Shown here: positions 3,513-64,000 of the stretch, in pieces | How the letters are laid out: every line of letters starts with the position of its first letter | Position numbering within the stretch: the first letter of the stretch is position 1 | DNA from: Tetradesmus obliquus | Lineage: Eukaryota; Chlorophyta; Chlorophyceae; Sphaeropleales; Scenedesmaceae | Assembly: GCA_030272155.1 (NCBI GenBank) | Contig: CP126200.1 | Coordinates: 3,844,001-3,908,000, forward strand | Length of the DNA: 64,000 nt | Reading direction: 5' to 3' | Made by a program: the position numbers and the translations under genes | The notes under the pieces: model-generated | The model's input: only the letters and a program-made list of their open reading frames with translations | The model's database searches: none | Told to the model about the DNA's origin: nothing

Positions 3513-5660
3513 ATGGCACTTGCTGATCAGCCTGTGCTGGAGGGAGTGCCCGTCATCGATGCTTCGCAGTTCCTCGCCCAGGTATGTTATGTGCCATCTG
3601 CCGTGCGTTGTGCTGTCCAGACGGACTGCTGCTACTACTGTTGCTTCTACTACTGCTGCTGCTGCTGCTGCTCCTGTTGCCTTGCTGCTGCCCCTGCTTG
3701 CCAAGTTGTTGATGCTTGAAATCCGCTTGCAAGCAGCTGCCAGCACACTGCGTGTCTCTGATGCGGTCAAGCTTTCCGCTGTTGACGGGTCAAAGTAAAA
3801 CCTTAGCAGCTCGCTGCGCAGCAGCATGCGCCACCTACACCTGCAGCCGCGCTGTCACCACCTCTGCCCTGCTGCCACATGACACGTGTTCAATATTGAC
3901 AAAATCTTTTGTCACATTTATGTCTGCTGTAACGCACCGCAATCCAACTCCCTCTCGCCCCGCCCACCCCAGCAGGGCAACGCAGGCATGCGGCCACCGC
4001 AGGATGTGATAGACCAGATTGTGGAGGCATGCAGCAGCTGGGGCTTCTTCCAGCTGGTGAACCATGGTGTGAGCCAGCAGCTGCTGGACGAGCACTACGC
4101 GGCAATAAAGCAGTGAGTGGCATGCACACAGTAAGCATTACATGTGGTTGTGATCCATGGATCCATGGATGAGCACTACGCGGCAATGAAGCAGTGAGTA
4201 GCATGCGCACAATAAGCATTACATGTCGTGGTTCTGCAGCATAGCATTAGGTGTCAGTGAGGGCCAGTAGCTGTTGAATGAGCACTATGCAGCCATGAAG
4301 CAGTGAGTAGCATGCGCACAGTCAGCAATGCGTGTGGTTGGTGTGCAGCGTAGCATTAAGGGTTAGAGAGCCAGCAGCTGCTGGATGAGCACTACACGGC
4401 AAGAAAGCAGTGTGTGTCATGCGCACAATAAGCAGTACGTATGATTGTCCTGCAGCATAGCATCAGGTGTCAGTCAGAACCAGCAGCTGCTGGACGAGCA
4501 CTGCGCGGCAATGAAGCAGTGACTGGCTTGTGCACAATTAGCAGTACGTGTGGTTGTTGGTCAGCGCAGCTTGCGGTGTTAGTGAGCTTTGCACAGCACG
4601 ATCCAGGCATTGATGGGTGAGCGCTGCACAGCAACGAAGCAGTGGGTTACTGGATTGGATGGTCTCGTTCAATGGCAGCTTGTGTAGTGAGCTTCAGAGA
4701 CACAAGCTGCCATTGAATGAGACCATCATATATATCATATATATCATATATACTTACAGAGTCGGGGTAACACTGTTATCAACACGGCTGAGCGGTATGA
4801 TAGTGGCAGAAGTGCTTTGATAAAGCCACGGATCAGCAGCAGCAGCAGCACAACAAGCTGCCAGACTGCTGCAGAGTGTGCAGGGCTTTGCATGGCTGCT
4901 CACCTGTGACAATGCTGCTGCTGCTGCTGCAGGTTCTTTGCGCTGCCGCTGCCGGAAAAGCAGGCCTGCAAGCGCAGCAAGGACAACTCCATGGTGAGCT
5001 CACTCCAGCAGCAAACCTGAAAGTAGCTTATGTTGTTCATCTGCGAGAGGATTGGCTCGCAAACTGTAACACCCGCAGCGCTGGTTCTATCTTGACGGTC
5101 AGGTCTTGTGCAGGTGCAGCAGTGCAGCCGCCTCACCCCAGCGAGTTTGTGACAGCAGCTCTACCTCACACCGCTTGACCATGCGCTGCTGCCGCTGCTG
5201 CTGCTGCTGCTGTTGTTGTTGCAGGGCTACTTTAATGACGAGTTCACAAAGCAGAAGCTGGACCTGAAAGAGGGTGAGACACTTTGCGCTTAGTGCAAGC
5301 AGTGCTTCAGCATACATGTCGCTTGTCAGTTGCGCTGTTAGACCACCAAGCCACTGGAGGTGGATCAGCGCATCTTTGTGCATTGCTCAAGTTGTTGAAG
5401 TTGACGAGAAACACATAGCAAATCTGATGTCACCCTACCAGCGACGGCATCACTTCACTGTGACAAGGCACTTTCTTTGGTGCTAGCGTGAAGCGTTTGA
5501 CCAAGGACACTCACCACCAATGCTACGTTGCACTGCATGCAGGGTTTGACTTCAGGCACACGCCCAACCCGCAGCAGCCCGATGACCACGCAGACAATTT
5601 TGACCCACAGGGCGTGAACAGGTGGCCGCCGAGCTACCCAGACTTCAAGTGAGGCACTCC

Positions 5661-5704
<44 letters not shown>

Positions 5705-7905
5705 GTGTTGGTGCTTCTACTATTGCTTGGAATTGCAGGTCAACAGAATGTGCATGTACTCAGCGCAAAGAGCTTGCAAGCTCTATCACAAACTTAGCAG
5801 CGCCAGCGCGTTCGTGCGCCCTACGTGCACATAAATGACAGCTAGCAACACGCGTGCTTTTGCCCATGCTGCTTCTCCTGCAAATCATGGAGCAGCCTGC
5901 TCTACCGCAGCATGCACTTCTCACTACCCACCATCCTGCTGCTACCTGCTGCGCCCCGCCTACCTTCCCTCACACCAACACCACCCAGGTCCATCAACCA
6001 GCGCTACTTCACAGAGATGTCCCGCATCTCCTTCCGGCTGCTGGAAATAATTGCAATCGGCCTGGGCCTGCAGCCCACTGCGCTGCATGGCTTGTTCAAG
6101 CCTAGTCACACCAGCTTCCTGCGGCTCAACTTCTTGACTAACAACTGTCCGTGCAGCATGCTCTACACCAACATGCACCCAACACTAACCACCGCGCCTG
6201 CTGCTGCTGCTGCTGTTTGCCGCGCCCCGCCCACCTTCCCTCGCACCAACACCACCCAGGCCCATCAACCAGCGCTACTGCACAGAGATGTCCCGCATCT
6301 CCTTCCGGCTGCTTGAAGTGATTGCAATAGGCCTCAGCCTGCAGCCCACTGCGCTGCATGGCTTGTTTGAACCAAGCCACACCAGCTTCCTGCGGCTCAA
6401 CTTTCTAACTACAAGATGTCCGCACAGCATGCTGTACACCAACAAGCACCCAACACTAACCACCGCCCCTGCTGCTGCCGCTGCTTGCCGCGCCCCACCC
6501 ACCACCCCTCGCACCAAACACATCAGGCCCATCAACCAGCGCTACTTCACAGAGATGTCCCGCATCTCCTTCCGGCTGCTTGAAGTGATTGCAATAGGCC
6601 TCGGCCTGCAGCCCACTGCGCTGCATGGGCTGTTCAAACCATACCACACCAGCTTCCTGCGGCTTAACTTTCTGACTAACAGATGACCATGCAGCATGCT
6701 CTACACCAGCGTGCACCTCTCACTGCCCACCGCCCCTGCTGCTGCTGCTTGCCGCGCACCGCCCACCTTCCCTTGCACCAACAAACTCAGGTCCATCAAC
6801 CAGCGCTACTTCACAGAGATGTCCCGCATCTCCTTCCGGCTGCTTGATGTGATTGCAATCGGCCTGGGCAAGCAGCCCACTGCGCTGCATGGCTTGTTTG
6901 AACCGAGTCACACCAGCTTCTTGCGGCTCAACGTTCTGACCAACAAATGTACGCGCAGCATCTCTACACCAACATGCACCCAACACTAACTGCCGCCCCG
7001 CCCACCATCCCTCGCACCAAAACACGCAGGCCCATCAACCAGCGCTACTTCACAGAGATGTCCCGCATCTCCTTCCGGCTGCTCGAAGTGATTGCAATCG
7101 GCCTCGGCCTGCAGCCCACTGCGCTGCATGGCTTGTTTGAACCAAGCCACACCAGCTTCCTGCGGCTCAATTATTACCCAGTGACGTCTGGGGCTGCGCC
7201 TGACAGCCTAGGTATCTCACCGCACAAGGATGCAGGGTTTCTGACGGTGCTGGTGCAGGACGACGTGGCTGGGCTGCAGGTAAGGCTGGTCAACGCACTG
7301 TTATTGTTATGTTGCTGCACAAACGGTTGTGACTGTTTCCTTATTCAATCGGCCTGGAGGTGCAGCCGACTGCGCTGCATGGCTTGTTGAAGCCCAGTCA
7401 CACCAGCTTCCTGCGGCTCAACTGCTACCCGGTGACACCCGGGGCTGCGCCCGACAGCCTTGGGATGTTGCTGCACAAGCATGCAGGCTTCCTGACGGTG
7501 CTGGTGCAGGACGACGTGGCTGGGCTGCAGGTAAGGCTGGTCAACGCAGTGTTTTGTTGTTTGACCAAGGTTTGTAGTTGTTGTGGTGGTACATGGCGTA
7601 GATGGGCTGCAGTTGTGAGTCGGTGCAAACAAACAAATTGAATGTAGCTTACATTGCTGGTGCAGGATGTCGTTGGTGAGCTGAGCTGGGGAGGGTGTGT
7701 TGCACATACAATGCTCAAGTAATACAGCTTACAGATTCAGAAACTTCATCAGGTGAGAATGGTTTCTGTGTAAGCATTCATGACTGAGGCTTCTTAGTGT
7801 TGTTCTTGGTGGTGGTTCTGTGTGTGTGGTCAATGTGGGGTCACTGCTGACACATGTTGTCACGCTGCTGGTAAGAAGCAGGAACTGAACAAGCACCCAC
7901 CTGCC

Positions 7906-7937
<32 letters not shown>

Positions 7938-9299
7938 ATGTCTGCGTGTCAGGTGCTGCGGGAAGGTGTGTGGCACTTGGTGCAGCCGCTGCCGGGAGCC
8001 TTCACCATCAACGTTGGGGTGAGTGAGCACCTGATGGCCAGCTGATACGCCTGCAGCTTGACCTTAAGGATGATGCTGACAGTCGCACACTCGCTGAGTA
8101 ATGGATGCTGTCAGATGCTTTGACACAACAAGACGGAAACAATGGGCCAGCGCACGCCACGCCGCTGACACAGTTCAACTGCCGTTGGACGCACGACAAT
8201 CACCGGATTGAAGTACAGAGCTTGGCTGTCGAGCTTGGCTGGCACTGTGCGGCTGCTGACACGCTGCTGCGGCACTGCAGATACACGTCAACACACACAG
8301 AGGCATGCAAATCAAGACAGGCAAGACTGTTGATTAACTGCTCCTGCTGCTTGCAGGACATGGCCCAGGTGGCCACCAACGACAAGTTCTTTGCCAGCAA
8401 CCACCGCGTGCTGCAGTCCAGCAGCCGGCCCCGCTACAGCCGCGCGTTCTTCTTCAACCCCAGCCACAGCGTGGACATACAACCGCTGCAGGTGGAGGCG
8501 GTGGGAGGTGCGTCCCCAACATCTAGACGCTGTTTTGCAGCTGTAGCTATAATGCAGCACAGGGTGGACATACGGCTGCTGCAGGTGGGGGCGGTGGCAG
8601 GTGCCTGGCTTGTGGGAATTGAAAGTGTGATAAGCAGCAGCGCTGTAGACTCAGTACCCTAGCAAGGGCACAGAACCCGAATCAACTTGCTGTTTAGTGG
8701 CTGATGCCACCAGCCGTTTAAACTGCCAGCGACTGGCAGTTGAGACTGGCAGCATGGCAGCGAGGGCCTGGGGGTTGTCATGTTTGCAGGCTGGCTGAAC
8801 TCTGCCGCTGGCCTCTGCTGCTGCTGTGCTGCGCCTCTGCTGTGGCTGCTGCAGACAAGGTGCCTCACTACCGGCCCATCAACTGGTGGGAGTTTAGGTG
8901 AGACAAAGACAGCAGAGGCAGCCAGCCAACAAGTCCGGCAGCCAGCCACGTATAGTACCACAAACAAATAAAGACATTGCCGGCATCATTCTGCCGTGGC
9001 CAGGATGTGTGGCACTACTTACTGTATGTTGCGGCTGCACCCACCAGCGAATCTGCTGATTGTGACGTGTATTTCTCTGATCGCCATCGTCTATGCCTGG
9101 TTGCTGCAAGTTAACTCCGCATGGTGGCGTGTGGGGCCGCAGCATCGTTCCTATGGCTGCTGACATGATGATGATGGCTGCTGCGTGGCTGCTGCGCTCC
9201 TGCCGCAGGTCGAAGCGCTACGAGGGCGACTACGCCAATGTGGGCGAGGAGGTGCAGATAGAATGGTACAGGCGGAAGGAGGGCGTGGAGGCGCGCTGA
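3513..9299 (+). CDS. Fe(II)/2-oxoglutarate-dependent oxygenase, isopenicillin-N-synthase-like
   Basis: Ten exons join with consistent phases: 3513-3581, 3976-4112, 4933-4993, 5225-5273, 5543-5648, 7030-7279, 7953-8018, 8357-8507, 8855-8897, 9209-9299 (340 aa, normal for the class). The N-terminal DIOX_N part has PVIDASQF and WGFFQLVNHGV; NRWPPSYPDF follows in exon 5. The double-stranded beta-helix core carries the iron ligands His206-x-Asp208 (SPHKDAGFLTVL) and His262 (SNHRVL), and Arg272-x-Ser274 (RPRYSR) for the 2-oxoglutarate carboxylate. The C-terminus YEGDYANVGEEVQI is typical of plant and fungal members. The family oxidises small molecules with O2 and 2-oxoglutarate; the substrate cannot be told. 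The start ATG at 3513 gives the usual short N-terminus. Exon 6 has several upstream and one downstream damaged copies (listed separately), and 7030-7279 is the only copy with both HxD and a good donor. Confidence 0.88.
4083..4645 (+). repeat. Six tandem copies of an exon 3' end plus splice donor (oxygenase intron 2)
   Basis: The last coding bases of oxygenase exon 2 (reading DEHYAAIKQ) with the donor and about 50 bases of intron recur at roughly 4087, 4169, 4278, 4384, 4492 and 4616, spaced about 80-125 bases. Only the first is preceded by a full exon. Copies 2 and 3 keep GTGAGT, copy 4 has GTGTGT, copy 5 GTGACT and copy 6 GTGGGT, so the donor decays with distance. None of the later copies has an acceptor. 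Confidence 0.85.
4658..4727. other. Near-perfect 28-bp inverted repeat (hairpin) in oxygenase intron 2
   Basis: Arms 4658-4685 and 4700-4727 are reverse complements at 27 of 28 positions. The odd pair would be G-U in RNA of the + strand. The loop is 14 bases (4686-4699). An AT-rich run of ATATC/ATATA units follows at 4727-4751. The size and position in an intron would suit a small-RNA precursor or a tiny terminal-inverted-repeat relic; neither is proven. Confidence 0.8.
5661..5703. repeat. (CTG)n microsatellite in oxygenase intron 5
   Basis: An uninterrupted run of about 14 CTG units starts a few bases after the splice donor of exon 5. Such runs recur in many introns of the window. Confidence 0.9.
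5925..7029 (+). repeat. Four decoy copies of the head of oxygenase exon 6
   Basis: Units of about 240-270 bases each hold an intron 3' end with AG acceptor and the first 59 or so codons of exon 6 (from INQRYFTEMSR to SFLRLN). Exon-like parts begin at 5989, 6260, 6527 and 6791; the intact exon begins at 7030. All four stop resembling the exon right after SFLRLN and run into sequence like that upstream of copy 1, so the repeated unit is intron end plus exon head. None has a donor or the iron-binding HxD block. Reading frames within the exon-like parts remain open, with few substitutions between copies. Confidence 0.88.
7346..7553 (+). repeat. Damaged second copy of the 3' half of oxygenase exon 6
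   Basis: Downstream of the intact exon, 7346-7532 repeats its 3' two thirds, including the donor GTAAGG at 7533. The acceptor-proximal part is missing, and the iron motif reads LLHKHAG instead of SPHKDAG, so the metal-binding Asp is lost. If spliced in, it could not complete the active site. Confidence 0.85.
8557..8606 (+). repeat. Copy of the tail of oxygenase exon 8
   Basis: About 50 bases after the donor of exon 8, the segment encoding VDI-x-PLQVEAV together with a GTGCCTGG in place of the donor GTGCGTCC is repeated once. Confidence 0.75.
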
Positions 9300-15352: not shown

Positions 15353-15393
<41 letters not shown>

Positions 15394-16919
15394 GAGAAGA
15401 AGTCATAATCATGCAGCAACACCCCTGCTGAACAATCCGTTGCTGCACCGTCATGCTTGTGGTTTGCCTGCGTGACAGCCACCAGATGCTGCTGCTGTAA
15501 CACATTGTACGCGCTGCTGCTTGCAGCAGCTTCTCCCACTTCTGTCTGCTGGTAACGCTGCACAGCTGATGAGGTTTGTGTGACACCACTGCAACCAGCC
15601 TCACCATATTGGTGTTCAACCCAAATCAAACCCAAACCAAACCTGCAAGGCGGGCGCAATTTTGACACACTGCGCACGTGTGGCTTCAGCTCTAGCAGCT
15701 GCACTCCTCTGTACCACCTGTCCTGCCATGCTCCTTGGCACACCTGAAAACCTTGCCGTGGTCGCCATCGTCCCTCACACCCTTTAAAAACAGCTCTGCA
15801 TGAATCATCTCGTGCAGCAGCGTGTCCTTGAGGTCCCTCAGAGGCCTGCAGGGATGCAAATGTGCACCAACACAGCAAAAGCATGCACAACATAGTGTGG
15901 GTGCAAAAGTACTGGCAGCTGTAGCGTGGATCATCTCGTGCAGCAGCGTGGCCTTCAGGTCCCTCAAACGCCTGCAAGCATGACGATGGACAGTCACCAA
16001 CAGCAAGCAGCATTGTATCTTAAGGTCAGCCAGGCCGGCACTGCTGCTACCGCTAGCATGTAGCACTGCTTGATGTGACAAAGAGTCTTCATTGTGCATG
16101 TAAGCAGTGGGCCTGAGCTGGTGTGTGTCAGCGCATACAGCTGCTGCCCGAGGTGCGGCCATCCACTGACAGCAAGCAAGGGCCCAACACTACAACATGG
16201 TCATGTACAGCCGCACTTCTTCTGTATGCCTGCTGCTTATTAACAAGCAAGTGAGCACCGCATTAGTCAAGAGCAGCCCCTCGTTACCTGAGTTTGAGCA
16301 GTGGCTCCGACAGCTTGATGCGGCAGCCGCCGCCCCGCTGGAAGTGGCACACGCCAGCACACCTGTGGTTGCACACAGACAGCGATGCGACAAGCTGTTT
16401 TGATACAGCAACACAGCTTGAAATATGAAGGTGCTGGCATGATGCCGGCAACTGATAGCCGCATGGCATTGTGAAAATGACATCGACAGGTGATGCATTT
16501 GCTGCCAGCTGGTGCTGCCGGCGCGTAGGCTCTGCTTGCAACTGCACCGCAGCTGTGTCTGCACTGCTGTGTGAACGCAGGCATACACGCGTGACTGTGC
16601 ATTGCCTTCAGGCGGTTTTCAGCATGCTGCACGACAAAATGACATGTCCGAAGGCTTGCATGAACGTTCTGAGCACAGCTGCACAGCTGCAAGTCATGTC
16701 ATGCACAGCACATGCAGGTGCCATCACCACCACAGCTTGCAGGACAGCAGTTGCTCACAGTGTCATGCGCTTGGTGCTCCACTCCACACTGCATGCGCCA
16801 AGGCACTCATCAAAGTAGGTGCTGTTGTAGTGGCTGAACAGCGCATGCACATCTGGATGGGGGTCCAGTGCTTCTAGCTCATCTGCTGTGAGGCCTCCAA
16901 AGCCTTCTGCTTCTGCCAT
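13167..16919 (-). CDS. SPRTN: SPRTN/DVC1 (Spartan) DNA-protein-crosslink metalloprotease
   Basis: Seven minus-strand exons with consistent phases: 16759-16919, 16288-16362, 15744-15845, 15268-15313, 14780-14988, 14446-14503, 13167-14060 (514 aa). The SprT domain opens with DPHPDVHALF, then MTLCAGVC, RIKLSEPLLKLR and the zinc site His90-Glu91-x-x-His94 (HEMIHA) with His108 in DHG. TVFHTMHDEV and a zinc-ribbon-like C/H region ending CWFHMHSKHCGGQY follow. The C-terminal half is Ala/Gln-rich but carries three short interaction motifs: QPIAAFF (PCNA-binding PIP box), GKGNVLG (SHP-like p97/Cdc48 motif), and a UBZ4 finger Cys485-x2-Cys488, His505, Cys509 at the very end. SPRTN cleaves proteins crosslinked to DNA during replication, in the nucleus. 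Head-to-head with uL16m, 535 bases apart. The start ATG at 16919 precedes the conserved domain by few residues. Confidence 0.9.
15344..15393. repeat. Compound CAT/CAG microsatellite in SPRTN intron 3
   Basis: A run of CAT units followed by a run of CAG units, 30-80 bases upstream (on the minus strand) of the short 46-base exon 4. Confidence 0.85.
15923..15976 (-). repeat. Decoy copy of the SPRTN catalytic exon head
   Basis: In the intron upstream of exon 3 lies a second copy of that exon's first 50 or so bases, with its own TTGCAG acceptor, reading RRLRDLKATLLHEMIHA. After HEMIHA it diverges into intron-like sequence. The true exon at 15744-15845 continues through the third zinc ligand. Confidence 0.85.
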
Positions 16920-18853: not shown

Positions 18854-18891
<38 letters not shown>

Positions 18892-19682
18892 CGGCTGTGT
18901 CTGCAGGCGCACGCTGCGCCGCACGATCAAGAAGACAGCCATGCTGTGGATCCGGGTGACGCCCAACGTGCCCGTCACTAGCAAGCCTGCAGAGGTGCGG
19001 CGTGGCATGAAGCAAGCAGCAGCAGCAGCAGCCGCAGCAGCAGCAGCAGACTGGCGAAGATCAGCAGTTCCACCGGGTACTAGCAATACAGGCTTTAGAG
19101 TGAAGTAACGTGCCTGCTTTTCTGCGCCTCTTCAATTTGAAATGTTGTGACTTTGGTGTTGTAGATCGTGCTTGCTGGTCATCATGCGCCTGCTTACAGT
19201 AGGGCTCGAGAATATCCAGTACCTGGTGATACATGCAGACGAAGCTTGCGTGGTCAGCGCAGTCCCACCCCTAGATCATCATCTGTCAGGCTGACCCATG
19301 CCCATCTTGCTGCTGCTGCTGCCGCAGGTGCGTATGGGCGAGGTCAAGGGTGCACTGGACCACTGGGCTGCACAAACTCACCCTGCTGCTGCTGCCGCTG
19401 CTGCTGCTGTAGGTGCGTATGGGCAAGGGCAAGGGTACGCTAGACTACTGGGCTGCACTTCTCATTCTGCTGCTGCCGCTGTCGCTGCTGCTGCTGCCGC
19501 TGCTGCTGCCATAGGTGCGCATGGGCAAGGGTAAGGGTACGCTTGACTACTGGGCTGCGCCGGTGCGCGCCGGGCAGATCCTGTTTGAGATGGACCGTTG
19601 CAGCAAGGCCGATGTGCAGGCCGCACTGCACTCCATCCAAGCCAAGATGCCCATCAAGCTTGGCTTTGTGGAGTGGAGCTGA
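17455..19682 (+). CDS. Mitochondrial large-subunit ribosomal protein uL16m
   Basis: Six exons: 17455-17488, 17568-17655, 17825-17882, 18182-18597, 18907-18994, 19515-19682 (283 aa). The conserved half starts at SFVLMPRRIKYRKAHK and runs through RQLAFGLYGIRAME, TIKKTAMLWIRV, VTSKPAEVRMGKGKG, YWAAPVRAGQILFEMD to the stop, matching bacterial L16 throughout. Before it lie about 110 residues rich in Ser, Gln, Ala and Arg that start MRGFSAGRLCR, suitable as a mitochondrial presequence, so a mitochondrial rather than plastid protein is likely. uL16 sits at the peptidyl-transferase/tRNA corridor of the large subunit. The first three exons rest on phase continuity only and are less certain than exons 4-6. 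Intron 5 carries two decoy heads of exon 6. Confidence 0.85.
19328..19475 (+). repeat. Two decoy heads of uL16m exon 6 in intron 5
   Basis: Segments starting at 19328 and 19413, each behind a pyrimidine/CTG tract and AG, read VRMGEVKGALDHWAA and VRMGKGKGTLDYWAA. The true exon begins identically at 19515. The second is almost identical to the real exon over 43 bases, then turns into CTG-rich intron. Neither has a donor. Confidence 0.88.
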
Positions 19683-19684
19683 AC

Positions 19685-19703
19685 TCAGCTGACTCAGCGC
19701 TGG

Positions 19704-19753
<50 letters not shown>

Positions 19754-20140
19754 GTGCCGTGCAGCAGCCGCTGCACTCCATCCAAGCCAAGATGCCCATC
19801 AAGCTTGGCTTTGTGGAGTGGAGCTGAGCTAGCTACCTGCTGTGTGTGCAGTGGAGCTGAGCTGAGGCAGCGCAGCTTAGTGGGCTGTACAGCAGCAGTA
19901 GCAGCAGCAGGCCGCAACATGCAGCAGCTGAGCTGCAGCTGCTGTGTGTCACCTATCGTAGGTGGTAGGCTTATGATAAGTTTAGCTGAGCTGGCCAGCA
20001 GCAGCAGGCCACGGCGTGCAGTTCTGCGGCAGCTCCGCTGGAAGGCTGCACGGTCTATCAGGCGGTGTTTGTTTGTACATGCAGCTGAGCTGCAGCCGCT
20101 TGTGTGTGTGGAGAGTTGCGCTGAGCTGGCCAGCAGCCGT
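19685..20140 (+). repeat. Duplicated uL16m 3' end with CAG array behind the stop codon
   Basis: A (CAG)n run at about 19708-19751 separates the real 3' end from a near-identical second copy of the last 55 coding bases including the TGA (about 19771-19828). Shorter echoes of GTGGAGCTGAGCTG and of GAGCTGGCCAGCAGCAG recur near 19850, 19985 and 20124. Confidence 0.82.
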
Positions 20141-20204
20141 GTAATTGCTACAACTGTTTGGCTTGTCATTGACGCGACAAGCGTCATCATGATGATTCAT
20201 GCTG

Positions 20205-44713: not shown

Positions 44714-44769
<56 letters not shown>

Positions 44770-46982
44770 CTCCTCACGGCCGGCGCCAGCCCAGCAGATA
44801 GATGGTGCTGGCATCAACCTACCCGTTCAAGTTGCATTGCCACGCCGTTGCCTGCCAGCCTTGTCTGAGCTCACCAGCTGCGTTGTAACGATACCCCAAA
44901 AGGCGACGCCTTTGTGCCTCGTTTCTGGACTATAGGCACCATCACGCTACATGCATACATGGATACTTAGGGCCTGGGAACTCACCATCAGCTGCTGGCT
45001 GCTGCCAAACCTGCCCTTCACACCAGAGTCTACACAAGCCACAGCAAGTGGCCCAGCTATCTAAGCATGTCCATAACCCAACTGCCTGCCGGCCTTGCTG
45101 CTGGTCTTGCAGGACACGCTTCGCGAGCCGCCGCGAGCTGCTGTGTCGATGCGCAAGGCCATCACCGCCTCCATGAGCACCTGCTTCTGCCTGTACATGG
45201 CAGTGGGCTGCCTCGGCTACGCAGCGCTGGGGGATGCTGTGCCGGCCTCCATACTGCAGGTGGGCTGATGTGTTGAGTGTTAGTTGCAACTAACGTCAAT
45301 TGGTATGTCATAACAGGCTTCTGCCTGTACATGGTGGTGGGCTGCCTCGGCTACGCAGCGCTGGGGGATGCTGTGCCGGCCTCCATACTGCCAGTATGGA
45401 CTCACGCCTGAGGTGTGAGTTGCACTGATGGCATCAACTGCCATCAGTGATGTGCTGTATGTGTCATATGCTTTTACATAACATGTTGGCGGCCATGCAG
45501 TAAGCGCCGCTGCTGGATCGACAGCGCACACGCTCGCAGATTCTACTGTAGTACAGCGCCGCTGCTGGATCGACAGCGCACACGCTCGCAGATTCTACTG
45601 TAGTACATCGCACAGCGCAATTGTGGCCGAATGATCTTGTGTGGCTCGACCCTGCCCTCTCGCTGTGGTGCTGCCTTGCAGGGCTTCCCCGCTGCTCCAG
45701 CCTGGGCTCGCAGCCTGGGCAATCTGATGGTGCTGGTGCACATGGCGCCCGCATACCAGGTGGGAGGCTGCAGCCGCTGCAGCAATCTAGAAGTTCAGAC
45801 ATTCGACCAGTGATGTACAGCCATGATTTTCAAGTGTTGTGTATCATGCATGGGAGGTGCTGGTGCACATGGCGCCGGCATACCAGGTGGGAAGATGCAG
45901 CCGCTGCAGCAATCTACAAGCCCAGAATCTCAGCCAGCCATAACATCACTACACGATAGTATCGTGTGTCATGCTGATGGTGCTTGTGCACATGGCGCCA
46001 GTATACCAGGTGGGAAGATGCAGCCGCTGCAGCAAATGCTAGGAACCCAGGAGTGCAGCCAGTGATAAATATCACTGTTGTGTGCCATGCTGATGGTGCT
46101 GGTGCACATGGCTCCCACATACCAGTTGCCGCTGTTGCATGCGGCACGTATCAGCTGTGTGCAGTGTGGCTTCCTGCGCATGCGGCTGTATTTGCAGTGG
46201 CTGTTGCGTGTGCCGCTGCTTAAGCAAGCTGCTGTGCCTGATATGCAGCTTGATGAGCCACCAGCCCTCGCCTCCGTATCTTGCCGCTGGCCACACTGCA
46301 ATATTATCGCGTTTGCCCAGCCCAGGCATGCCGCCCGTACAGGATTGCAGTCATTGGTGCTACCAGTGATTGCACAATTGACCCCCTTGCCGCTGCTGCT
46401 GCTGCTACTGTTGCTGCTGCTGCTTCTGCTGCGCAGGTGTTTGCCCAGCCCATGTATGCCACAATCGAGGATTGGCTGATTTCGTGCATGCCGTCCCTAG
46501 CAGTTGTGGGTGCCCTTCCAACACAGCAGCAACAACAACAGCAGCAGCAACAGCGGAAAGCGCTGGGCAGCAGCAGCAGCAGCAGCAGCAGCAGCGCGCC
46601 ACGCTGGCGTCGCTGCTGCAGCGTAACTGGGGCTCTGCCTGCTGGTGCCACACTCGTACGAGCAGCGTACCGCACCCTATATGTGTGCTGCACCACGTTG
46701 GTTGCTGCTGCGCTGCCATTTTTTGGCGCATTTGGTGGGCTAATAGGTGCAGTGACATTCTATCCGACAGCTGTATACTTCCCATCCGCAATGTACTGCA
46801 AGGTATATAGGCCCTCCAAACGCAGCGCGACCTGGCTGGCCATTGTGGCCGTGAATGTTGTGATTGCTGTGGTGACGCTGCTGGCAACTGCCGGCTCGAT
46901 CTCTAACATTGTAAAGCAGGCCGTGAGTATGCAGCCGTTTGGGGGCAGCGGTGATGATGTGGTGCCTATGCATGGGCGGTAA
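41763..46982 (+). CDS. Amino-acid permease, AAAP/AAP type (APC superfamily)
   Basis: Ten exons in phase: 41763-41991, 42157-42326, 42710-42761, 43052-43145, 43407-43497, 44104-44214, 44575-44703, 45113-45259, 45682-45759, 46437-46982 (548 aa). A hydrophilic N-terminus of about 75 residues is followed by TM1 with GAATGHIITAVVGAGVLTLP, the AAAP signature. Further helices are visible, with HNRYKHAVYYILG after TM2, SFIALGLG, VAFAYNSCVVMIEIQDTLREPP and MAVGCLGYAALGD. The region after exon 10 start (VFAQPMYATIEDW) carries an inserted Gln/Ser/Arg stretch of roughly 65 residues, then two to three helices and a short Gly/Asp/His-rich tail. Plant AAPs are plasma-membrane H+/amino-acid symporters; substrate cannot be told. 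The ATG at 41763 is the first in frame, after an intron-free leader. Several introns hold decoy exon copies. Confidence 0.88.
43505..43730 (+). repeat. Two copies of permease exon 43407-43497 tail with donor
   Basis: The exon end (QWLWTLAFGVLQ) with GTG donor is followed by copies ending at 43601 and 43725. The intervening intron stretch (ACAAAGTTCTATG ... GCCAGCGTTCTGTTGC) is also duplicated, so the unit of about 104-124 bases spans exon tail plus intron head. Confidence 0.85.
44018..44045 (+). repeat. Short decoy head of permease exon 44104-44214
   Basis: CCGCAG followed by GTGCTGCTGAGC and then CTGCCTGACTTC, 86 bases upstream of the real CTGCAG plus GTGCTGCTGAGC. The copy is short and CTG-rich, so chance similarity is possible. 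Confidence 0.5.
44718..44767. repeat. (CTG)n microsatellite after permease exon 7
   Basis: About 16 CTG units begin 15 bases behind the donor of exon 44575-44703. Confidence 0.9.
45317..45395 (+). repeat. Copy of the 3' half of permease exon 45113-45259
   Basis: FCLYMVVGCLGYAALGDAVPASIL is repeated 60 bases after the real exon, differing mainly at one codon (MVV for MAV). The end reads CTGCCAGTATGG rather than CTGCAGGTGGGC, so the donor is destroyed. Confidence 0.85.
45504..45607. repeat. Perfect 52-bp tandem duplication in permease intron 8
   Basis: Bases 45504-45555 and 45556-45607 are identical, which marks a very recent duplication. The unit starts GCGCCGCTGCTGGATCGACA and is not obviously exonic. 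Confidence 0.88.
45857..46130 (+). repeat. Three copies of permease exon 45682-45759 tail with donor
   Basis: The exon end LMVLVHMAPAYQ is repeated with ends at 45886 (LVHMAPAYQ, donor GTGGGA), 46009 (LVHMAPVYQ, GTGGGA) and 46125 (LVHMAPTYQ, TTGCCG: donor lost). Spacing is about 115-127 bases. An intron stretch GATGCAGCCGCTGCAGCAA follows copies 2 and 3, and GGCTGCAGCCGCTGCAGCAA the original. Confidence 0.88.
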
Positions 46983-46988
46983 GTGCAT

Positions 46989-47006
46989 GGGGGGGGGGGG
47001 GGGGGC
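46989..47006. repeat. G homopolymer of about 18 bases just behind the permease stop
   Basis: An uninterrupted G run starts 7 bases after the TAA stop. It could fold as G-quadruplex in the 3' UTR, or be a place where length is miscalled. Confidence 0.8.
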
Positions 47007-50000: not shown

Positions 50001-50193
50001 CCAGCATGTTCCAAGAGTCGGCTGAAAAACGGTCCAGGCATGCATGACATCAAAGAGCAATGGAACTTTAGACAGCTCCTGCAGCTTATCCGACCGACCA
50101 TGCCAACCACCACCTAGCATGCCTGGCTTGCCTCTGGCAGCACATATTGCAGAACATATAAAGGCAGCTGCCCTTAATCAACATCAACCCAAG

Positions 50194-50310
50194 CCCCTTG
50201 CACAGCCGCGTGGCGTGCCAGGAAGCTGGTCACAATGTCAGCAAACAGCTGCGGCTCCTCCTCCTGGGGGCAGTGCCCCGCCCGCTTCACCACAGCAAGC
50301 CGGCAGCATG
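50194..50310 (-). repeat. Duplicated 3' end of the alpha/beta hydrolase
   Basis: About 115 bases matching 50448-50563 (C-terminal codons from the catalytic-His region to near the stop) lie 254 bases beyond the real 3' end, with several substitutions. It is out of the gene as annotated and has no stop-codon match. Confidence 0.85.
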
Positions 50311-50443
50311 GCACGAATCTGAAAACCAGTAGCGTCCTGCATGGCATCAGCACGGCTCCACCTGGTCACATTCGACACGCCTGCCTTGCCTCAAGCAGCA
50401 AACTAGGCTGCATCTCCGGTCAAACCAACACAGAGCGCTACAT

Positions 50444-52934
50444 CTAGGCCCCTTGCACAGCTGTGTGGCGTGCCAGGAAGCTGGTCACAATGTCAGCAAA
50501 CAGCTCCGGCTCTTCCTCCTGGGGGCAGTGCCCCGCGCGCTTCACCACAGCAAGCCTGCAGCCCTTCACAAGCCTCGCCAGCTTCATGCTGTTACTTGCA
50601 GGCACCAGCTTATCCCCAGCGCCATGCACAATCAGCACTGGCGTGTTGTGTGCGGCTACTGCTGCTGCAAACCGCGTGGCGAGCCCGGCATCTTCCAGCC
50701 CGCCCATAGGTGCTGCACCCGCTGCTGCTGCTGCACTGGTGGCTGTTGTGCTGCCGCCAGCACCCAGGCGCGCCAGCAGGAACTGCACCATACCGCTTTC
50801 CCAGCCTTTTACGAGCTGCGGGAGCCGGTACGCATCTACTGCTGCTGGAGTAACCTTGGACTGATCATAGTAGGCTTGGCGCAGTGTGTTGGCCCAGAAG
50901 GTTCGGGAGCGTACCAGCGAGCGCAGCAGCAGCACGATGGCCGGCCGCAGCAGCGACAGCACCAGCACTGTCGACAGCATCACAGCCGTCTGCACCAGTG
51001 CCAGCACGCGTGATAGCAGCGTGCTGAGCAAGTTTCCGTTGCCGTTCTTGCTGCCATTGGGCTTCAGCAGCGCAGCAAACTGCGACTCATCGCCCCGCGT
51101 GGCGTATAAAGCGACGTCGCCGGCAGCTGCTGCTGCATTCAGGGACTCACTACGCGACAGCTCGCCGCCCCTGCCTTGCGCGCTGCTGCTGCTGCTGCTG
51201 CTGCTCTCTGCTGCCATTGCATCCAGGTCGCTGCTGCTGGCCTCCGACCTGCTGCTGCTGCTGCTGAGCCGCGCGGCACGTGCTGCTGCTTCAGCCTGCT
51301 GTGCTGCAGCTGCTGCTGCTGCTGGCTGCTCAAACTCCCCGCTAGCAAGGCTGCGGGTGAATGCACTGCCGTCTTGCAGCTGCTCCAGCTGGCTGCTGCC
51401 ATTGCTGCGCAGTCCTGCAATGATTGCTGGGTCCACCAGAATCACTGCTGCATACTCCGAAGCGTTGAAAACATACTCAAGCGCTGCACAGGCCCCTCCA
51501 AGGCTATGCCCCATCAGCACTCGCTTCACCCGCTGCTGATCCGATTTGCTGCTGCTCCTGCTGCTGCTGCTGCTGCTGCTTGGCGCCTTTGCAGCATCAG
51601 CTGCCGCACTTGCCTCACTACTGCTGCCGGCTGCAGCTTCTGCTACTGCTGCTGCAGCGCCCTTTACAAAGCCCGTCACACTGCCCTCGCCTGCTGCTGC
51701 TGCTGTTGCCTGCAGCGGAGACTCCATCCCCTGCTCTACTGCTGCTGCTGCAGCCTCAGTTGCAGACCCACCACTCTCACGCTCAAGTGCCTGTACTGCT
51801 GCCGGCTCCTGCTCCACTGCAGCTGCTGCTGCAGCAGCTGTTGGGTCCGCCACTGCTGCTGCCGCTGCTGCCGGTGCAGTGTCTGCACGCTCGTGCACAC
51901 TGGTGTGCGGGTAGCCTGCTTCGCTGGACTTTGCTGCTGCTGCGCGGCTCAGCAGGCCTCTCACTGTGAGTTCATAGTCCATTGCTAAGCGGCCCAGCCT
52001 GCCGTTGAAGGCCAGGTAGTAACCTGACAGGTCGGTGGGCCTGCAATGACAACACAGCAACAGCAGCAGCAGCAGCAGCAGCAGTACCATTGTCAGTGAG
52101 TGGCAGTTTGCCTTGTGGCCTTGTGGGAGACAGATTCCTGGTCCATTGTTGCAGCTAGCAGGGAGCGGCAAAGCCAGGTACCGCCATGTGGTAGCACTTT
52201 CATACATTGAACGGAAAAGCTAAGCAGTACACTAGCAGCCAATCCTGCAACATACCTTTGAGTGAGGCCAAAGCCTGGCATGTCATGCGCAGTGACCAGC
52301 GCCCCCAGCCGCTCAGCCAGCTGCTGCTGCACCAGAGACCAGGACCAGGTGTTGCTGCCAAAGCCATGATAGCAGTGCACTGCAGGCACTGGGCCTTGCA
52401 GGCGCGCTGCTGCTGCTGGCGGCGGTGCGAGGCGCGCTGCTGCTGCTGTGGGCGCCGGCGGCGGCAGCGATCGTGAGGCCTTCACCTGTGACACATGGCA
52501 GTGGCACATGACATAGTAAGCAGCTATCAGAAGGTGACTTGGCTGACAGAACTGTTGACTGTGCACAGAGCTGGTGGACGTCTAGGTGGTGAGTCTTGCA
52601 AAGTGTTTTGTTTGCGCGTCAGCAGGAAGCCGTTGCTGGAATGGTGTATACAAGCATCCCAGCAATGTGAGCTGTCAGTGCAGCAGGCAGCACAACAGCC
52701 CCAACTCGCCAGCAATCGCCAGCACAGGTTAGGTCCTCTGCTTGCATGTATAATGCATACTTATGTGAGCTCTTTGAGTACAGCTACATCCCGGCGGCAG
52801 CAGCAGCTGCAGCGCCAGCAGCGCCAGCAACTCTCATTTGTGTTTTGTGCGCACCTTGACGTGCACTGAGAGGTTGTCGATGTGCCTGAACCGCGAGTCA
52901 GGGTCGCCTAGGTCAGCCTCGATGCGCTCACGAG

Positions 52935-52974
<40 letters not shown>

Positions 52975-58863: not shown

Positions 58864-61456
58864 ATGGCTGCAGTGGGGCAGCGGAGGCCCCACTCGCCAG
58901 ACCACCTGCAGAACAGCCAAGCTTTAGTGAAGAGACAAAGAACGGATGATCAGCAGCTAATTATTGGATCAGTGACAAAAGATGTGAGCAGAGATGCTGG
59001 CCTTTGCATAGATGCTTTGAGCTAAGCTGGGTTCAGGAGCAAGCAGAAAGGGGATCCTACTGTTGCTGCGGCAGCCATTGCAGATATATGCAGTGCCACA
59101 GCCTGTCAGCCACAGCAACAGCTGCTGAAGTTACAACTACAACGCAGCAGCAGATCATCTGTCACTATGGCTGCCACTGCTGCTGAGCATTTCTGTGACT
59201 GTGGGTGCAGCGTGCGCGTGCTTTGCGCTGCACGTCTCTGGCACAGCAAAACAACACAACACTGCAGCTGCATCCGTGCAACAGCTACAGCAGCTACATC
59301 CCCCACATACCCAGGCACCCTCAAATCCGCCTGCCCCGTTCTGCGTTGCCTGTTTCTCCGCTGATTTCAAAACTCTTTTCCTGCAGGGCATCCGCCGCAC
59401 CTCCAACCTGCTGGCACCCATCATGCAGCTGGTGGGCCACGGGGGCGAGGTGCTCGGCATGCGGTTTAGCCCCGACGGCCAAACCCTAGCGTCAGCCTCA
59501 GCAGACCGCACGCTGCTGCTGTGGCGCACGTATGACGAGTGCGAGAACTTCATGATGCTACGCGGGCACAAGAACGCAGTGCTGGAGGTGCACTGGTTCA
59601 GCAATGGCGAGACGTTGCTGTCGTGCTCAGCAGACAAGAGTGTGCGCTGCTGGGACACAGAGGCGGGCGTGCAGGTGGGCGGAAGCGCAGTGCATTAGTT
59701 TGGACGCGCTTGCCGCACGCGGCAGATGTGCTGTTGTCCTGGCGCCTGTTTATATTGTATCCTGCGGTGCTGTGCGTTGCATGATGTCAAACGACTGATG
59801 TTGCCAGCACTGGGCTCACTTTTGCTGCTGTGTTGCAGGTGAAGCGGCTGTCGGAGCACACAGCGATAGTGAACAGCTGCTGCCCGCTGCAGCGCGGGCC
59901 GCCGCTGTTTGTGTCTGGCGGCGACGACAGCAGAGTCAAGGTGCGCTGGCAGCGGTGACAGCAACAACAGTCAGCAGCAGCAGCAGCAGCAGCGTCTATT
60001 GTTCAGCACAGCAGGAGCAGCAGAGGCACCGTGGAAGTGCCAACAGACATATGTGTGCAGCAGCAGCAGGGTGCATGCAGTACAGCGCAGACCACACCAT
60101 GAGGTGAATCGGCTGTTGGCGGGGCTGGCCTGTGGCTCGGTGCTCAAGGGGTGCAGAGGCATGTTGTTGCAGGCACTGCCATGTACATCTGCTCACAACT
60201 GTGTGTCTATCTTCACGCCTGACCCTGCCTGCAACCGTGTACAAACCGCCAGGTGTGGGACATGCGGTCGAAGCGCAGCATACAGACCATAGAGGCGCCG
60301 GCCCCCGTCTGCGCAGTCGCATTCTCGGCAGCCGGCGACCAGGTGTATAGCGCTGGTCTGGACAACAATATCACAGCCTGGGAGCTGCGCAAGGGAGCAG
60401 CAGGACTCACGCTGCAGGGGCATGCAGACACCATCACAGGGCTGCGGGTTAGCCCTGAGGGCAACCACCTGCTCAGCAACAGCATGGATAACACGCTGCG
60501 GATTTGGGACATGCGGCCGTACGCACCAGCAAACAGGTGCGCGCTCGGCGGAGTAAGGCAGATATTTGTTATACAGTATGATCTCACTGCAGCGCAGCTG
60601 CTGCTGCTGCTGTCATGCAAAGGGGGGCTGTTGCCTGTTGCCATCAGCTTTCTGCGCGCGTCTGTGCGGGCTGACAGCTTGTCTCTTTGAGTAGTGGCTA
60701 GGCGCTGAACAGAAGGGACATTGAGAGGCAATCTGCTTGGCGCAGTCGCATCACACACAGCCTGCATCACACAGCCTGCATCATGCGCTGTCGCCTGCTG
60801 CAGGTGTGAGAAGGTGCTGCACGGCCACCAGCACAGCTTTGAGCAGGGGCTGCTGCGCTGCGACTGGTCGCCAGACGGCAGCAGGGTGGCAGCAGGCAGT
60901 GCAGACCGCGTGGTGTATGTGTGGGACCCAGGTGGGCGACGACCTTGTTACTAATTGGGATTAGTAATCAGGATTATACTCCCAAGCAGAAGCAGGGAGT
61001 AGAGGATGGTGCATGCAGCAGCAGATGCCATAATGCATGCAGCAGCAGGTTCCACAATGCATGCAGCAAATATTTCGGCAGGGATGCAGCAGCTGGTGTC
61101 GCGTGGTGCACACACACCCACTAAGCCACGGCCCAGCAATTGGACATGCGCCAGCAGCACCTGCTGCTGTCTGTGTCGCCTCGCAGACTCTGGCGAGGTG
61201 CAGTATGCGCTGCCAGGCCACAAGGGCAGCGCTCACGCTCAGTTGTCGCCCTGACCACCTGCACTCACTGCGCTGACGCATGCATCGTGCCTGCTTTTGC
61301 TGCCTGTTCGGCCCCGCAGTGTCTGGCGAGGTGCAATATGCGCTGCCAGGCCACAAGGGCAGCGTGAACGAGGTTGTGTTCCACCCCAAGGAGCCCATCG
61401 TGGGCTCATGCAGCAACGACCGCACGCTGTTCCTTGGGGAGCTCGCGTACGCTTGA
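58864..61456 (+). CDS. SNRNP40: U5 snRNP 40-kDa WD40 protein (Prp8-binding)
   Basis: Six exons in phase: 58864-58983, 59387-59674, 59839-59940, 60253-60536, 60804-60931, 61320-61456 (352 aa; human 357). The N-terminus has ALVKRQRTDDQQLIIG, then APIMQLVGHGGEVLGMRFSPDG and seven WD repeats ending in WRTYDECENF, CWDTEAG, VKVWDMR, AWELRKG, RIWDMRPYAP, VYVWDP and a last blade closing with SNDRTLFLGEL. PYAPANRCEKVLHGHQHSFEQGLLRCDWSPDGSRVAAGSADR is cited here only in parts: PYAP...RC and LLRCDWSPDGS are diagnostic of SNRNP40 over other WD40 proteins. It is a nuclear splicing factor in U5 and the tri-snRNP. Exon 1 ends AAAGAT before GTGAGC, phase 0. A decoy head of the last exon lies at 61187. Confidence 0.92.
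61187..61240 (+). repeat. Decoy head of U5-40K last exon
   Basis: Behind TCGCAG the copy reads SGEVQYALPGHKGS, as the real exon at 61320 does, then diverges (AHAQLSP, stop). Joined to exon 5 it would restore Asp at the junction (PDSGEV), the residue usual in this blade. The real exon gives Val (PVSGEV). Confidence 0.88.
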
Positions 61457-61500
61457 GCAGCGCAGCAGCGGTGTGGAACTCGGAGAGCTGGCTGCTTTAG

Positions 61501-61756
61501 CGCACGCTGTTCCCCGGGGAGCTCGCGTATGCTTAACTGCTGAGCGTACGCTGCGTGGGCTTTGGCCGATTGCGTGTGCGTGAGCGGCTGAGCGTACGCT
61601 GCTCCTCGGCCGAGTGCGTGTGGGTGAGCGGTTGCGCGCCGCTGTTCCTTGGGGTGCTTGCGTACGCTTGAGCGGCTGGGCGTACGCTGCATGGGCTCTG
61701 GGCGATTGTGTATGTGTTAGCAGCATGCTGTTCCTTGGGGAGCTCGCGTACGCTTG
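61501..61756 (+). repeat. Tandem tails of U5-40K last exon, each with a stop codon
   Basis: The final coding bases (TLFLGELAYA plus stop, 61421-61456) recur at 61501-61536 (stop TAA), 61640-61671 (TGA) and 61722-61756 (TGA), linked by shorter GCGTACGCT/GAGCGGCTGAG units. The spacing of the three copies is irregular (about 80-140 bases). Confidence 0.85.
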
Positions 61757-61759
61757 AGA

Positions 61760-62821
61760 GTGCAAGCATTAGCAGTCGAGCAGAGCAGCAGTCAAGATTG
61801 GTGTGTGGCTTTCCTGCTGTGCGGCTGGGGCCCTCATTGAGCCGCACCTGTGTTTGGAAGTAGCAGCTGCTGGCGCACATGCTGCATGCGATGTGCAGTG
61901 CATGGGGTGCACTGTGGTACTGCAGCTGCAGCACAACAGGCCCCTGTGAATGCGGGTGTGTTTTGTGTGCAGGCAGTGCAGCGATGTACGCGTGGTGTGT
62001 GCCTCGATGTCGTCGTGATGCACCAAGCTGTGCCTGCCAGACTTAGCACGCCAAGCACTGCTGTGCAGCGGCTCAACTACGACCTTTCTCTGTTGTTAAA
62101 GCATCCTTTTGCTGAGCAGGATGCACATGACACACATTGCTGCTGATTCCAGCCTTCGTGCTTACTGTGCTATCCGACATCTACTTGTGCAAGCAACTGG
62201 CTGCGTTAAGGCAAGCTTGAAGGCATCAGGATGCAGGATGCACATGACTCAAGCTTGAAGGCATTACCTCGCTAGAGTGGTTGCAGCTACTGCAGCCTGC
62301 AGAGCCAGCATACAAAGATGTTCACGGCTGCAGCGTTGTCTTGTATCGGGCGTATTGGACTTCGTTTGTAAGTCTCCTGTTTGCTGTGAACCCCGTATTA
62401 TGGCTTTTGAGACTGTCCTGGTACCTCCACAAGTTCTGTCATCGACAGCAGTAGGTTACAGCAGGCCACCTACTGCTGCAGCTGCTGGGCGTCATGCTGG
62501 CTGTGCTGCAGCTGCTGGGCGTCATGCTGGCTGTACTTTGCCTAGCTCGGACCAGCCTAGATTAACAATGCCGGAAAGCTGATCAGAAAACGCCGAGTCA
62601 CCTTGAGCTGAGGTGTCATGTGTCAGGCCAGGGATGTTGTTCCGGAGTTGTCAACTACACTCTCGTGGCTGTGTTGCAGCCCATAATGAGCAGTTTTCTC
62701 GACACCCGCACACCATTTTGATGCCTCAACTGCATCAGCCTTGACTACACACTACGTGTCGTGTCCAGTGCTACTGGCTACGCCCATCTCCGAGACGCTC
62801 GAGTGCTGTTGAAAAATTCAA
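61760..62821. other. U5-40K 3' flank and upstream region of the last gene
   Basis: No gene supported. A TGTAA is seen at about 62369. A 33-base unit around GCAGCTGCTGGGCGTCATGCTGGCTGT is duplicated at about 62476-62535. From 62580 the sequence becomes balanced and should hold the promoter and 5' UTR of the gene that starts at 62822. Confidence 0.45.
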
Positions 62822-64000
62822 ATGGCTTCATTGGCGTCAAAGCACAGCATGAGCACAGCGTCGGTGCATCGGCCAGCGCCAGCGCTGCTGGCACCACGCG
62901 TGCTGCCCCAAAGGCACTGTCCAGTACACACCAGAAGCTCATTGGCCGATAAGATCAAGCACTCGCTGGACTTCAACAAGAAAGGGCGGCTTGAAGTCAT
63001 TGACAAGCTTTACAGGTGAGCAACAGGCTGCCCTGGAGCTGCTGCACGATCAAGGGGAGAACGCACCTGTCTGCTGCAGGACGGTGTTGGTGGTTTGCAA
63101 GCAGCAGACAGTACAGAACTTAAGCACACAAGCAACTTGTCTGCAGCGTCTTCTTGTCTAATTAATTCACAATTTGGTGCTGTACCTCAGCAGCATGCTC
63201 AGCAGCAGGCGTTTGCGCATGTTAAGTGATTTGAGCATGGGCACTGCAGTGCCATGCTGCAGCACCACAGCAGCGACAGTCACAGCCCTAGCCACCAACT
63301 TGCCTGCTGCGCCAACATGCCAGCCACCGTGAACTGTGCGCATACTTCTCACCTGCTTTCATGCGTGCACTGTCTCGGCTTGCAACCTCTTTTACCGCTG
63401 TGTGTCCCCTGTAACGGTCCGCTGCTCACCTGCTGCTAGCCTGGCATAGTGCGGTGCCTGGGACGCCCTTGCTGTCTTGAACGCTGCACTTGCAGCCGTC
63501 GCAGTGGCGAGCTTCTGCTGTGAATCACAATAAGATTGCACCTCGGTGGCTCATACACAGGTTTTGAGTGAACCTGTGCCTTGCCCCACAAGACAACCAT
63601 ATGGAATGCGTTATGGGGTGGCTCATCATCATGTTACCATCGACCCATAGCATCAACGTTCTAGGTTGGCTGTGCTGCAGGAACCCCAGCAAAGCGTCGC
63701 TGGAGGCTGTGCTGGCGGATGACTTAAGATGGGGGAGGAGGGCTACACCAAGAAGTTCACAAAAGCAGGTGGGCCTGCGGTTTTAAGGTCCTTAACTGTA
63801 GTGCTTGTGGTGGGGTGTGCAGGTGTGTGCGCGCATGCGTGCATGCTGTTAATTTGCAGGGCGCGGGTATGGTGCACACCTCCTACATGCAGGTGTACAA
63901 TTGGGTGTGGGTGACTGGGAAAAAGAGCGTTGTTGTGCTGTGGGTCCTGAGGGGGCTGTGGGGCTGTGCTGGCGGATGACTTCAAGATAGGGGAGGAGGG
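62822..64000 (+). CDS. Unrecognised protein with probable organelle transit peptide (5' part; runs off the window)
   Basis: Exon 1, 62822-63015, starts MASLASKHSMSTASVHRPAP, continues Ala/Arg/Ser-rich up to about residue 40 (transit-peptide-like), then ADKIKHSLDFNKKGRLEVIDKLYR. Exon 2 begins at 63681 (phase fits) and reads NPSKASLEAVLADD before a problem: the sequence DDFKIGEEG expected from the copy at 63964-64000 is frameshifted here by one missing base, giving DDLRWGRR. Ending at 63775 or nearby, it may join an exon at 63860-63891 (GAGMVHTSYMQ). I do not recognise the family. The frameshift may be a sequencing error, or exon 2 as written may be one of the decoy copies so common here and the true exon may be the one cut by the window edge. 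Confidence 0.5.

Follow-up and report, generated by a model that had tools for sequence, protein, structure and literature searches.

Exon-edge copies in the introns and 3′ flanks of genes across a 64-kb window of Tetradesmus obliquus

Introduction

This report concerns a 64,000-base stretch of the genome of the green alga Tetradesmus obliquus (contig CP126200.1, positions 3,844,001 to 3,908,000), here called the window. In its genes, the head or the tail of an exon is found again, on the same strand, in the adjacent intron or behind the stop codon. The pattern is real. We propose that it probably reflects local tandem duplications that straddle splice junctions, are re-copied from the conserved exon edge, leave the protein unaffected and lengthen the introns. 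The copies, their orientation, locality and offsets, the direction of their amino-acid decay, the longer introns that hold them and, at one array, a relative with a single copy are all observed directly. Tandem duplication has long been proposed as a route of intron gain. Intron growth and the origin of new exons and introns are commonly discussed from isolated examples; in this window, 21 of 51 introns capture various stages, the source lying next to its copy.

Exon-Edge Copies and Their Controls

The analysis covers this one window. Six genes were modelled from homologues with a purpose-written spliced protein-to-DNA aligner: a 2OG-Fe(II) oxygenase (2OG), a KCBP-type kinesin, an amino-acid permease, eL21, U5-40K and a mitochondrial-type uL16. 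The models comprise 57 exons and 51 introns, a suspect exon at 34599–34646 being left out; for some first and last exons, the outer end was placed by eye. Up to 80 bp of coding sequence at each exon edge were compared by Smith–Waterman alignment with the edge's own adjacent intron or 3′ flank, and a score of at least 40 was counted as a copy.

At this cut-off, 23 of 108 exon edges are copied, and 21 of the 51 introns carry such a copy. Upstream copies exist for 12 of 51 heads and downstream copies for 11 of 57 tails; the opposite placements are rare or absent, with 2 of 51 heads copied into the downstream intron and 0 of 51 tails into the upstream one. At the same cut-off no edge was matched in 20 rounds with dinucleotide-shuffled introns, in 20 rounds with other introns as target, in 2,868 same-gene non-adjacent pairs or in a reverse-complement search of all 108 edges. 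In a wider set, the best of 4,925 non-adjacent comparisons scored 42. An excess over shuffled controls, the comparison that the first-pass annotation of this DNA proposed for the whole genome, is present within the window. Below the cut-off, the upper tail is raised, but the excess of older copies is not significant (rank test p = 0.32).

Once some intron flank is added to the query, 45 copies in 26 edge families are counted. The nearest copy lies 80–156 bp from its source in 24 of the 26 families; for the other two the distances are 239 and 251 bp. Five of the 26 nearest offsets are divisible by three. All six modelled genes contain copies, and a single one occurs in a SprT-like and in an alpha/beta-hydrolase gene; no local copies were found at E 1e-3 in the FAR-17a, Bax-inhibitor and PAQR-like genes. 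The first-pass annotation had placed copies in at least nine of thirteen genes, repeated one to six times in the adjacent intron or behind the stop codon. The placement is as it described, with copies in eight genes and up to four per edge, but its thirteen genes were not recovered, about eleven being found.

Whole-window comparisons give the same picture. Self-BLAST (E 1e-6) returns 53 direct and two inverted matches, and 52 of the 53 direct matches lie within 1.3 kb. Tandem Repeats Finder (TRF) reports 11 loci with a period of at least 80 bp, imperfect head-to-tail units of 83–271 bp, and all 11 contain or consist of copies of modelled exon edges. Most TRF arrays with shorter periods are not related to exon edges.

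Placement in Genes and in Intergenic DNA

Tandem duplication might strike at random everywhere. Constraint on one side would make the exon-edge cases stand out in a search, and within genes the exons are packed so closely that most units would meet a border. The self-matches at E 1e-6 form 26 local families, of which 22 overlap a modelled exon by at least 15 bp. Random placement over the window gives a mean of 8.9 exon overlaps (maximum 18 in 5,000 trials), whereas placement within gene spans already gives 17.0 of 26 (P = 0.022 for the 22 observed). The border association inside gene bodies is therefore largely the geometry of dense exons, as random duplication would have it. The four uncounted families are at a SprT exon, at a hydrolase exon, at an exon touched by 6 bp and at 63705–64000.

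The same explanation is favored by the longer recognizability of exon parts than of intron parts, and part of the excess may indeed be the longer survival of recognizable exon sequence. Intron-only repeats exist as well: of 30 copy-free introns, eight have internal direct repeats scoring above 26, the highest value in shuffled sequence, three reach at least 47 and two at least 50. These scores indicate that intron-only duplications occur, and that they are few.

Against random duplication stands the result of masking the exons and their copies and searching again at E 1e-6. The 19,451 noncoding bases within gene spans then yield nine local-repeat groups. Every group belongs to an array associated with an exon edge, although for one (30530–30898) the link is only a 32-base match. 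In the 33,853 bases outside the spans, the group at 63705–64000 is the only one away from a likely exon, and just two of fifty 400-bp pieces contain an internal direct repeat scoring at least 50. This near absence of such duplications outside genes is not explained by geometry. We regard random duplication with biased detection as possible but short of probable.

The group at 63705–64000 is a 38–39 bp direct repeat, 257 bp apart and 95% identical, at the window end and without a gene model.

Anatomy of the Copies

A recognizable copy consists mostly of 35–120 bp of exon, with an intron portion that ranges from a few bases to about 30 bp; decay is much further advanced over the remainder of the unit. 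Units of 80–270 bases holding both exon and intron sequence, as first annotated, are thus borne out in composition, but the recognizable copies are shorter. In 46 copies, 697 of 799 flanking intron positions are identical to the source. Since the intron flank is copied along with the exon, the source must be DNA or unspliced RNA rather than mature mRNA; retroposed fragments, that is, spliced sequence without intron flanks, are not what is seen. An RNA-based mechanism, with similarity ending exactly at the splice signals, was dropped once whole units had been aligned.

In many arrays the interior intron parts resemble each other. Purely intronic copies differ by 19.7% in their intron parts, a value inflated by unit boundaries picked by alignment, and the exon-like parts differ by 10.1, 6.9 and 15.8% at codon positions 1, 2 and 3.

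Beyond the outermost copy, the outer unit is recognizable (z at least 2.5) in 13 of 26 families. Weak residual similarity was read by eye at KCBP exons 36663 and 38581; the z scores there are 3.4 and 0.9, the second of them not significant. The 13 families without a recognizable outer unit have the form E-X-E or E-X-E-X-E and are what would be expected if a short exon-edge fragment had been copied into the adjacent intron during break repair, arrays growing by later exchange between the two copies. Such templated insertions are often inverted, yet none of the 108 borders has a reverse-complement copy, and the other 13 families retain their outer unit. As a general account, templated insertion is in our judgment rather doubtful.

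Decay of the Copies and Its Direction

The splice AG or GT is retained in 34 of 40 assessable copies, about 30 being expected by chance at the flank divergence. An in-frame stop occurs in two of 45 copies and gaps in the exon part in six of 45. These counts, together with substitutions, agree with the several stages of decay described in the first-pass annotation.

In three genes, 75 nonsynonymous codon differences between copy and exon were polarized against homologues: 48 are derived in the copy, four (at two sites) in the true exon and 23 are ambiguous; synonymous codon differences number 93 more. Thirteen of the 48 hit residues invariant in all six or seven aligned homologues. One 2OG copy has lost the Asp of the iron-binding HxD motif, a residue invariant in six aligned homologues. 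At 2OG residue 67, in the exon 2 array, three of four copies and close homologues have Met and the true exon has Ile.

The 48:4 asymmetry indicates that the copies decay while the exon is kept, and that they are not other alleles. It bears directly on an assembly artefact, in which alternative haplotypes or repeated contig ends would have been joined head to tail. Such a join could account for exon parts being closer than intron parts and for the third-position bias given below, both of which resemble allelic differences; functional alleles, however, would split the derived missense changes evenly. The arrays also hold up to four differing copies, and one copy is found again in a T. obliquus protein distinct from the window protein by two residues and one gap. 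A haplotype mis-join was rejected on the missense asymmetry, and an artefact of any of these kinds is highly improbable, in keeping with the initial argument against simple assembly duplication.

Intron Growth and a Candidate New Exon

Introns with copies have a median length of 520 bp, compared with 291.5 bp for those without (rank test p = 6e-7), and local duplications account for 5,507 of the 21,766 bases of intron within the spans of the six genes. Intron growth by these duplications is thus supported, as is the earlier suggestion that tandem duplication of junction-containing DNA drives it. For T. obliquus UTEX393, the comparison of five algae tabulated in PMC5966456 gives a mean intron of 462 bp, the longest of the five; exon-edge copying could partly account for such long introns.

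The spliced models match their homologues while skipping the copies, with one exception. The KCBP gene (27–40 kb) has as its best match T. obliquus protein P0001, with 99.78% identity in an alignment of 1,364 residues that contains two mismatches and one gap. P0001 includes the copy at 34599–34646 in frame, with one residue different from the window. Since the two proteins differ, the copy exists in a second sequence, which argues against an assembly error at this site. By motif search, P0001 has two occurrences of the repeated stretch; of eight homologues, three have one and five have none. The stretch at 34599–34646 is a candidate for either a gene-prediction trap or a young cassette exon and, if it is spliced, 34374–34598 would be a candidate new intron made by copying. 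That one copy is already an exon in a public protein is a warning for gene prediction.

A Proposed Mechanism and Its Weighing

We suggest the following sequence of events. Segments of about 80–156 bp, sometimes about 240–265 bp, that cross an exon–intron border or a stop codon would be duplicated in tandem through end-joining, slippage or unequal exchange. When the unit spans an exon start, the upstream copy would land in the intron, and of the available acceptors splicing would take the one closest to the remaining exon sequence. For a unit across an exon end, the first donor would be used and the copy would fall in the intron; for one across a stop codon, the copy would fall in the 3′ flank. 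With the protein kept intact through splicing, the duplication would be tolerated and the intron would be longer. The copy would then decay, by missense changes at invariant residues, occasional stops and loss of AG or GT. Selection would hold the true edge constant and so preserve it as a good partner for further exchange or slippage, re-seeding the array, while the neighboring intron sequence drifts beyond recognition.

In the six modelled genes, at least two tandem CTG units occur within the last ~30 bp of 21 of the 51 acceptors; for 30-bp windows along the span of KCBP the corresponding share is about 8%. CTG tracts might act as slippage promoters near exon starts.

Several points weigh against this mechanism. 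The duplication step is one that we infer, from evidence in a single window. Half of the families (13 of 26) show no residual similarity past the outermost copy, and in 10 of these 13 the exon part is nevertheless 91–100% identical; judging from these alignments, some families may first have arisen as spaced, templated copies rather than full tandem units. In multi-copy arrays, inspection by eye showed no clear relation between the divergence of a copy and how far it lies from the true exon. The single-copy relative, in itself evidence for the mechanism, is P0162, an open reading frame on a 1,129-base contig: its peptide matching the left edge of the array (5881–5958) runs straight into one complete 2OG exon 6 and continues through the exon 6 donor, where the window carries four extra copies, but the contig is short and assembled, and the repeat may have been collapsed in it. 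Finally, the copies differ from their exons at 44 of 823, 39 of 824 and 126 of 824 sites at codon positions 1, 2 and 3, a third-position bias of 3.03 (family bootstrap 2.39–3.76, 45 copies), where a factor of about 2 is expected if copies drift freely from birth and the true exon changes only at silent sites. The bias persists, at 3.2, after stratification by CpG, other G/C and A/T sites. Its interval is wide (1.7–5.2) in the 15 single-copy families; copy-restricted changes in multi-copy families number 29, 21 and 52 at positions 1, 2 and 3. An early coding phase of the copies, or birth from another haplotype, could lie behind it.

The bias is also the main attraction of the idea that the copies are functional, as alternative exon edges or new cassette exons under selection. 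Stops in just two copies, the in-frame exon of P0001 and the retained splice dinucleotides, discounted by the number expected by chance, point the same way. Yet a functional role sits poorly with the 48 copy-derived missense changes, 13 of them at invariant residues including the HxD Asp, with the single exon border of most copies and with the scarcity of offsets that are multiples of three. We consider it unlikely. A composite, in which exon edges are conserved anchors that seed the 80–156 bp duplications as a main engine of intron growth in this lineage, and some copies pass through a coding (cassette) phase before decay, would explain the third-position bias; we put it forward tentatively, with more doubt than belief. 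Border-straddling tandem duplication, neutral for the protein, is the reading that we retain.

Inventory of Features

The copies are listed in Table 1. Two further subjects deserve mention. The only inverted self-matches (E 1e-6) are two imperfect inverted repeats, 4658–4727 (~70 bp), directly after the 2OG exon 2 copy array, and 22157–22219 (~63 bp). The CAGCAG-rich minisatellite at 30524–30885, adjoining a KCBP exon-tail copy, has several periods of 27–72 bp (TRF).

In the permease gene, a 52-bp unit at 45499–45611 (2.2 copies, 96% matches, TRF) is a wholly intronic tandem duplication. Compared with the metagenomic relative P0268, the exons flanking permease intron 44215–44574 are close, but hardly any of the intron can be aligned in translation, so intron turnover seems rapid relative to the protein.

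Table 1. Exon-edge copies and associated features, in window coordinates
Gene	Feature	Coordinates	Strand	Remarks
2OG	Exon 2 (3976–4112) tail and GT donor; four downstream copies (4166, 4257, 4368, 4477)	4067–4647	+	
2OG	Exon 6 head and AG acceptor; four upstream copies (5958, 6229, 6498, 6761)	5892–7023	+	Unit ~265 bp; ~265–271 bp by TRF
2OG	Exon 6, true exon	7030–7279	+	Spliced alignment to P0121
2OG	Exon 6 tail and GT donor; downstream copy	7346–7558	+	HKD (HxD) Asp to His
2OG	Exon 8 (8357–8507) tail and donor; copy	8558–8604	+	
SprT-like	Exon head with LLHEMIHA; one upstream copy	15791–15982	-	Offset 125; putative border
uL16 (mitochondrial-type)	Exon 19515 head; two upstream copies (19308, 19383)	19308–19558	+	
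uL16	Last-exon tail and stop codon; one 3′-flank copy (19759)	19614–19834	+	65/65 exon-part bases identical
eL21	Exon (21704–21572) head; upstream copy	21668–21875	-	Unit ~85 bp; 37/37 coding bases identical
KCBP	Exon 30308–30400 tail; copy at 30481, then CAGCAG-rich minisatellite	30369–30894	+	
KCBP	Exon 31598 head; two upstream copies	31342–31671	+	
KCBP	Exon 33882 head; four upstream copies	33379–33947	+	Two without AG, one with a stop
KCBP	Exon 34251 internal block; copied upstream at 34122	34122–34310	+	
KCBP	Exon 34251–34373 tail and donor; copies 34465, 34589	34316–34740	+	
KCBP	Part of exon 34251–34373 tail copy	34599–34646	+	16-residue in-frame exon in P0001
KCBP	Exon 35505 head; one upstream copy	35387–35545	+	
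KCBP	Exon 35505–35644 tail and donor; one downstream copy (35719)	35577–35791	+	
KCBP	Exon 36663 head; two upstream copies	36378–36717	+	Unit 140
KCBP	Exon 37348 head; one upstream copy	37234–37395	+	
KCBP	Exon 38035 head; one upstream copy	37887–38104	+	
KCBP	Exon 38581 head; two upstream copies	38380–38623	+	Unit 94–101
KCBP	Exon 39138 head; one short upstream copy	39036–39155	+	18 coding bases; score 51, coding alone <40
Permease	Exon 43407–43497 tail; two downstream copies	43449–43732	+	
Permease	Exon 44104 head; short upstream copy	43996–44127	+	20 coding bases; score 62 including intron flank; CTG-rich, weak
Permease	Exon 44104–44214 tail and intron; one tandem copy	44200–44477	+	
Permease	Exon 45113–45259 tail; one downstream copy	45183–45391	+	75/77 coding bases identical
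Permease	Exon 45682–45759 tail and donor; three downstream copies	45724–46128	+	Unit ~127
Alpha/beta-hydrolase	Last-exon end; one 3′-flank copy	50193–50562	-	95% identical; unit 255; putative border
U5-40K (WD40 protein)	Last exon (61320) head; one upstream copy	61165–61364	+	
U5-40K	Last-exon tail and stop; three 3′-flank copies	61422–61764	+	

The window has a G+C content of 56%. The long gene was identified as KCBP from its pieced-together protein. The FAR-17a/AIG1, Bax-inhibitor, SprT-like and alpha/beta-hydrolase genes were identified by Pfam only. For a likely PAQR-type gene at 56.7–57.8 kb, Pfam gave no match. Scans of the window found no tRNA (bacterial-code setting) and no Rfam match.

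Comparison with Known Systems

Tandem exon duplication with mutually exclusive splicing also places exon sequence in a neighboring intron. The likeness ends there: whole exons are duplicated in that system, whereas here the copies are single-splice-site edges that decay at invariant residues. Complete exons with both splice sites and coding constraint are not found among them, though the third-position bias allows partial constraint. Intronic minisatellites are alike in their head-to-tail imperfect units, and the TRF loci are minisatellite-like arrays; single spaced copies are not arrays, and every locus here with a period of at least 80 bp is tied to an exon edge.

We know of no link between the duplications made by end-joining of staggered breaks and exon edges. 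As outlined in PMC8355091, such duplications are a plausible source of direct local repeats; here, the array edges are decayed. Introners, in the summary of PMC9860276, are alike in bringing large changes of intron content, green algae included, but they are dispersed similar introns, and the copies described here adjoin their source. Near-identical dispersed introns are not found within the window: the non-adjacent maximum is 42, one of 53 direct matches (E 1e-6) is not local, and the seven far matches at E 1e-3 are CTG-rich by eye. With dispersed similarity almost nil, the idea of a dispersed element was rejected.

Genome sequences of several T. obliquus strains and relatives exist, according to PMC12571836, and would allow direct dating of the birth, decay and use of the copies. 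The titles and abstract openings surveyed described no exon-edge copies filling introns. Closest is the intron gain in the potato RdRp gene, which, as PMC4974935 summarizes it, involved a duplication crossing an intron–exon border. The two cases share local tandem duplication of genic DNA over such a boundary. Here, however, the copies stay in an existing intron or behind the stop codon, repeatedly and in many introns, and one annotated candidate new intron is all that compares with the potato gain. The pattern in the window is best regarded as a new variant of intron change driven by tandem duplication: dense, border-straddling and neutral for the protein.

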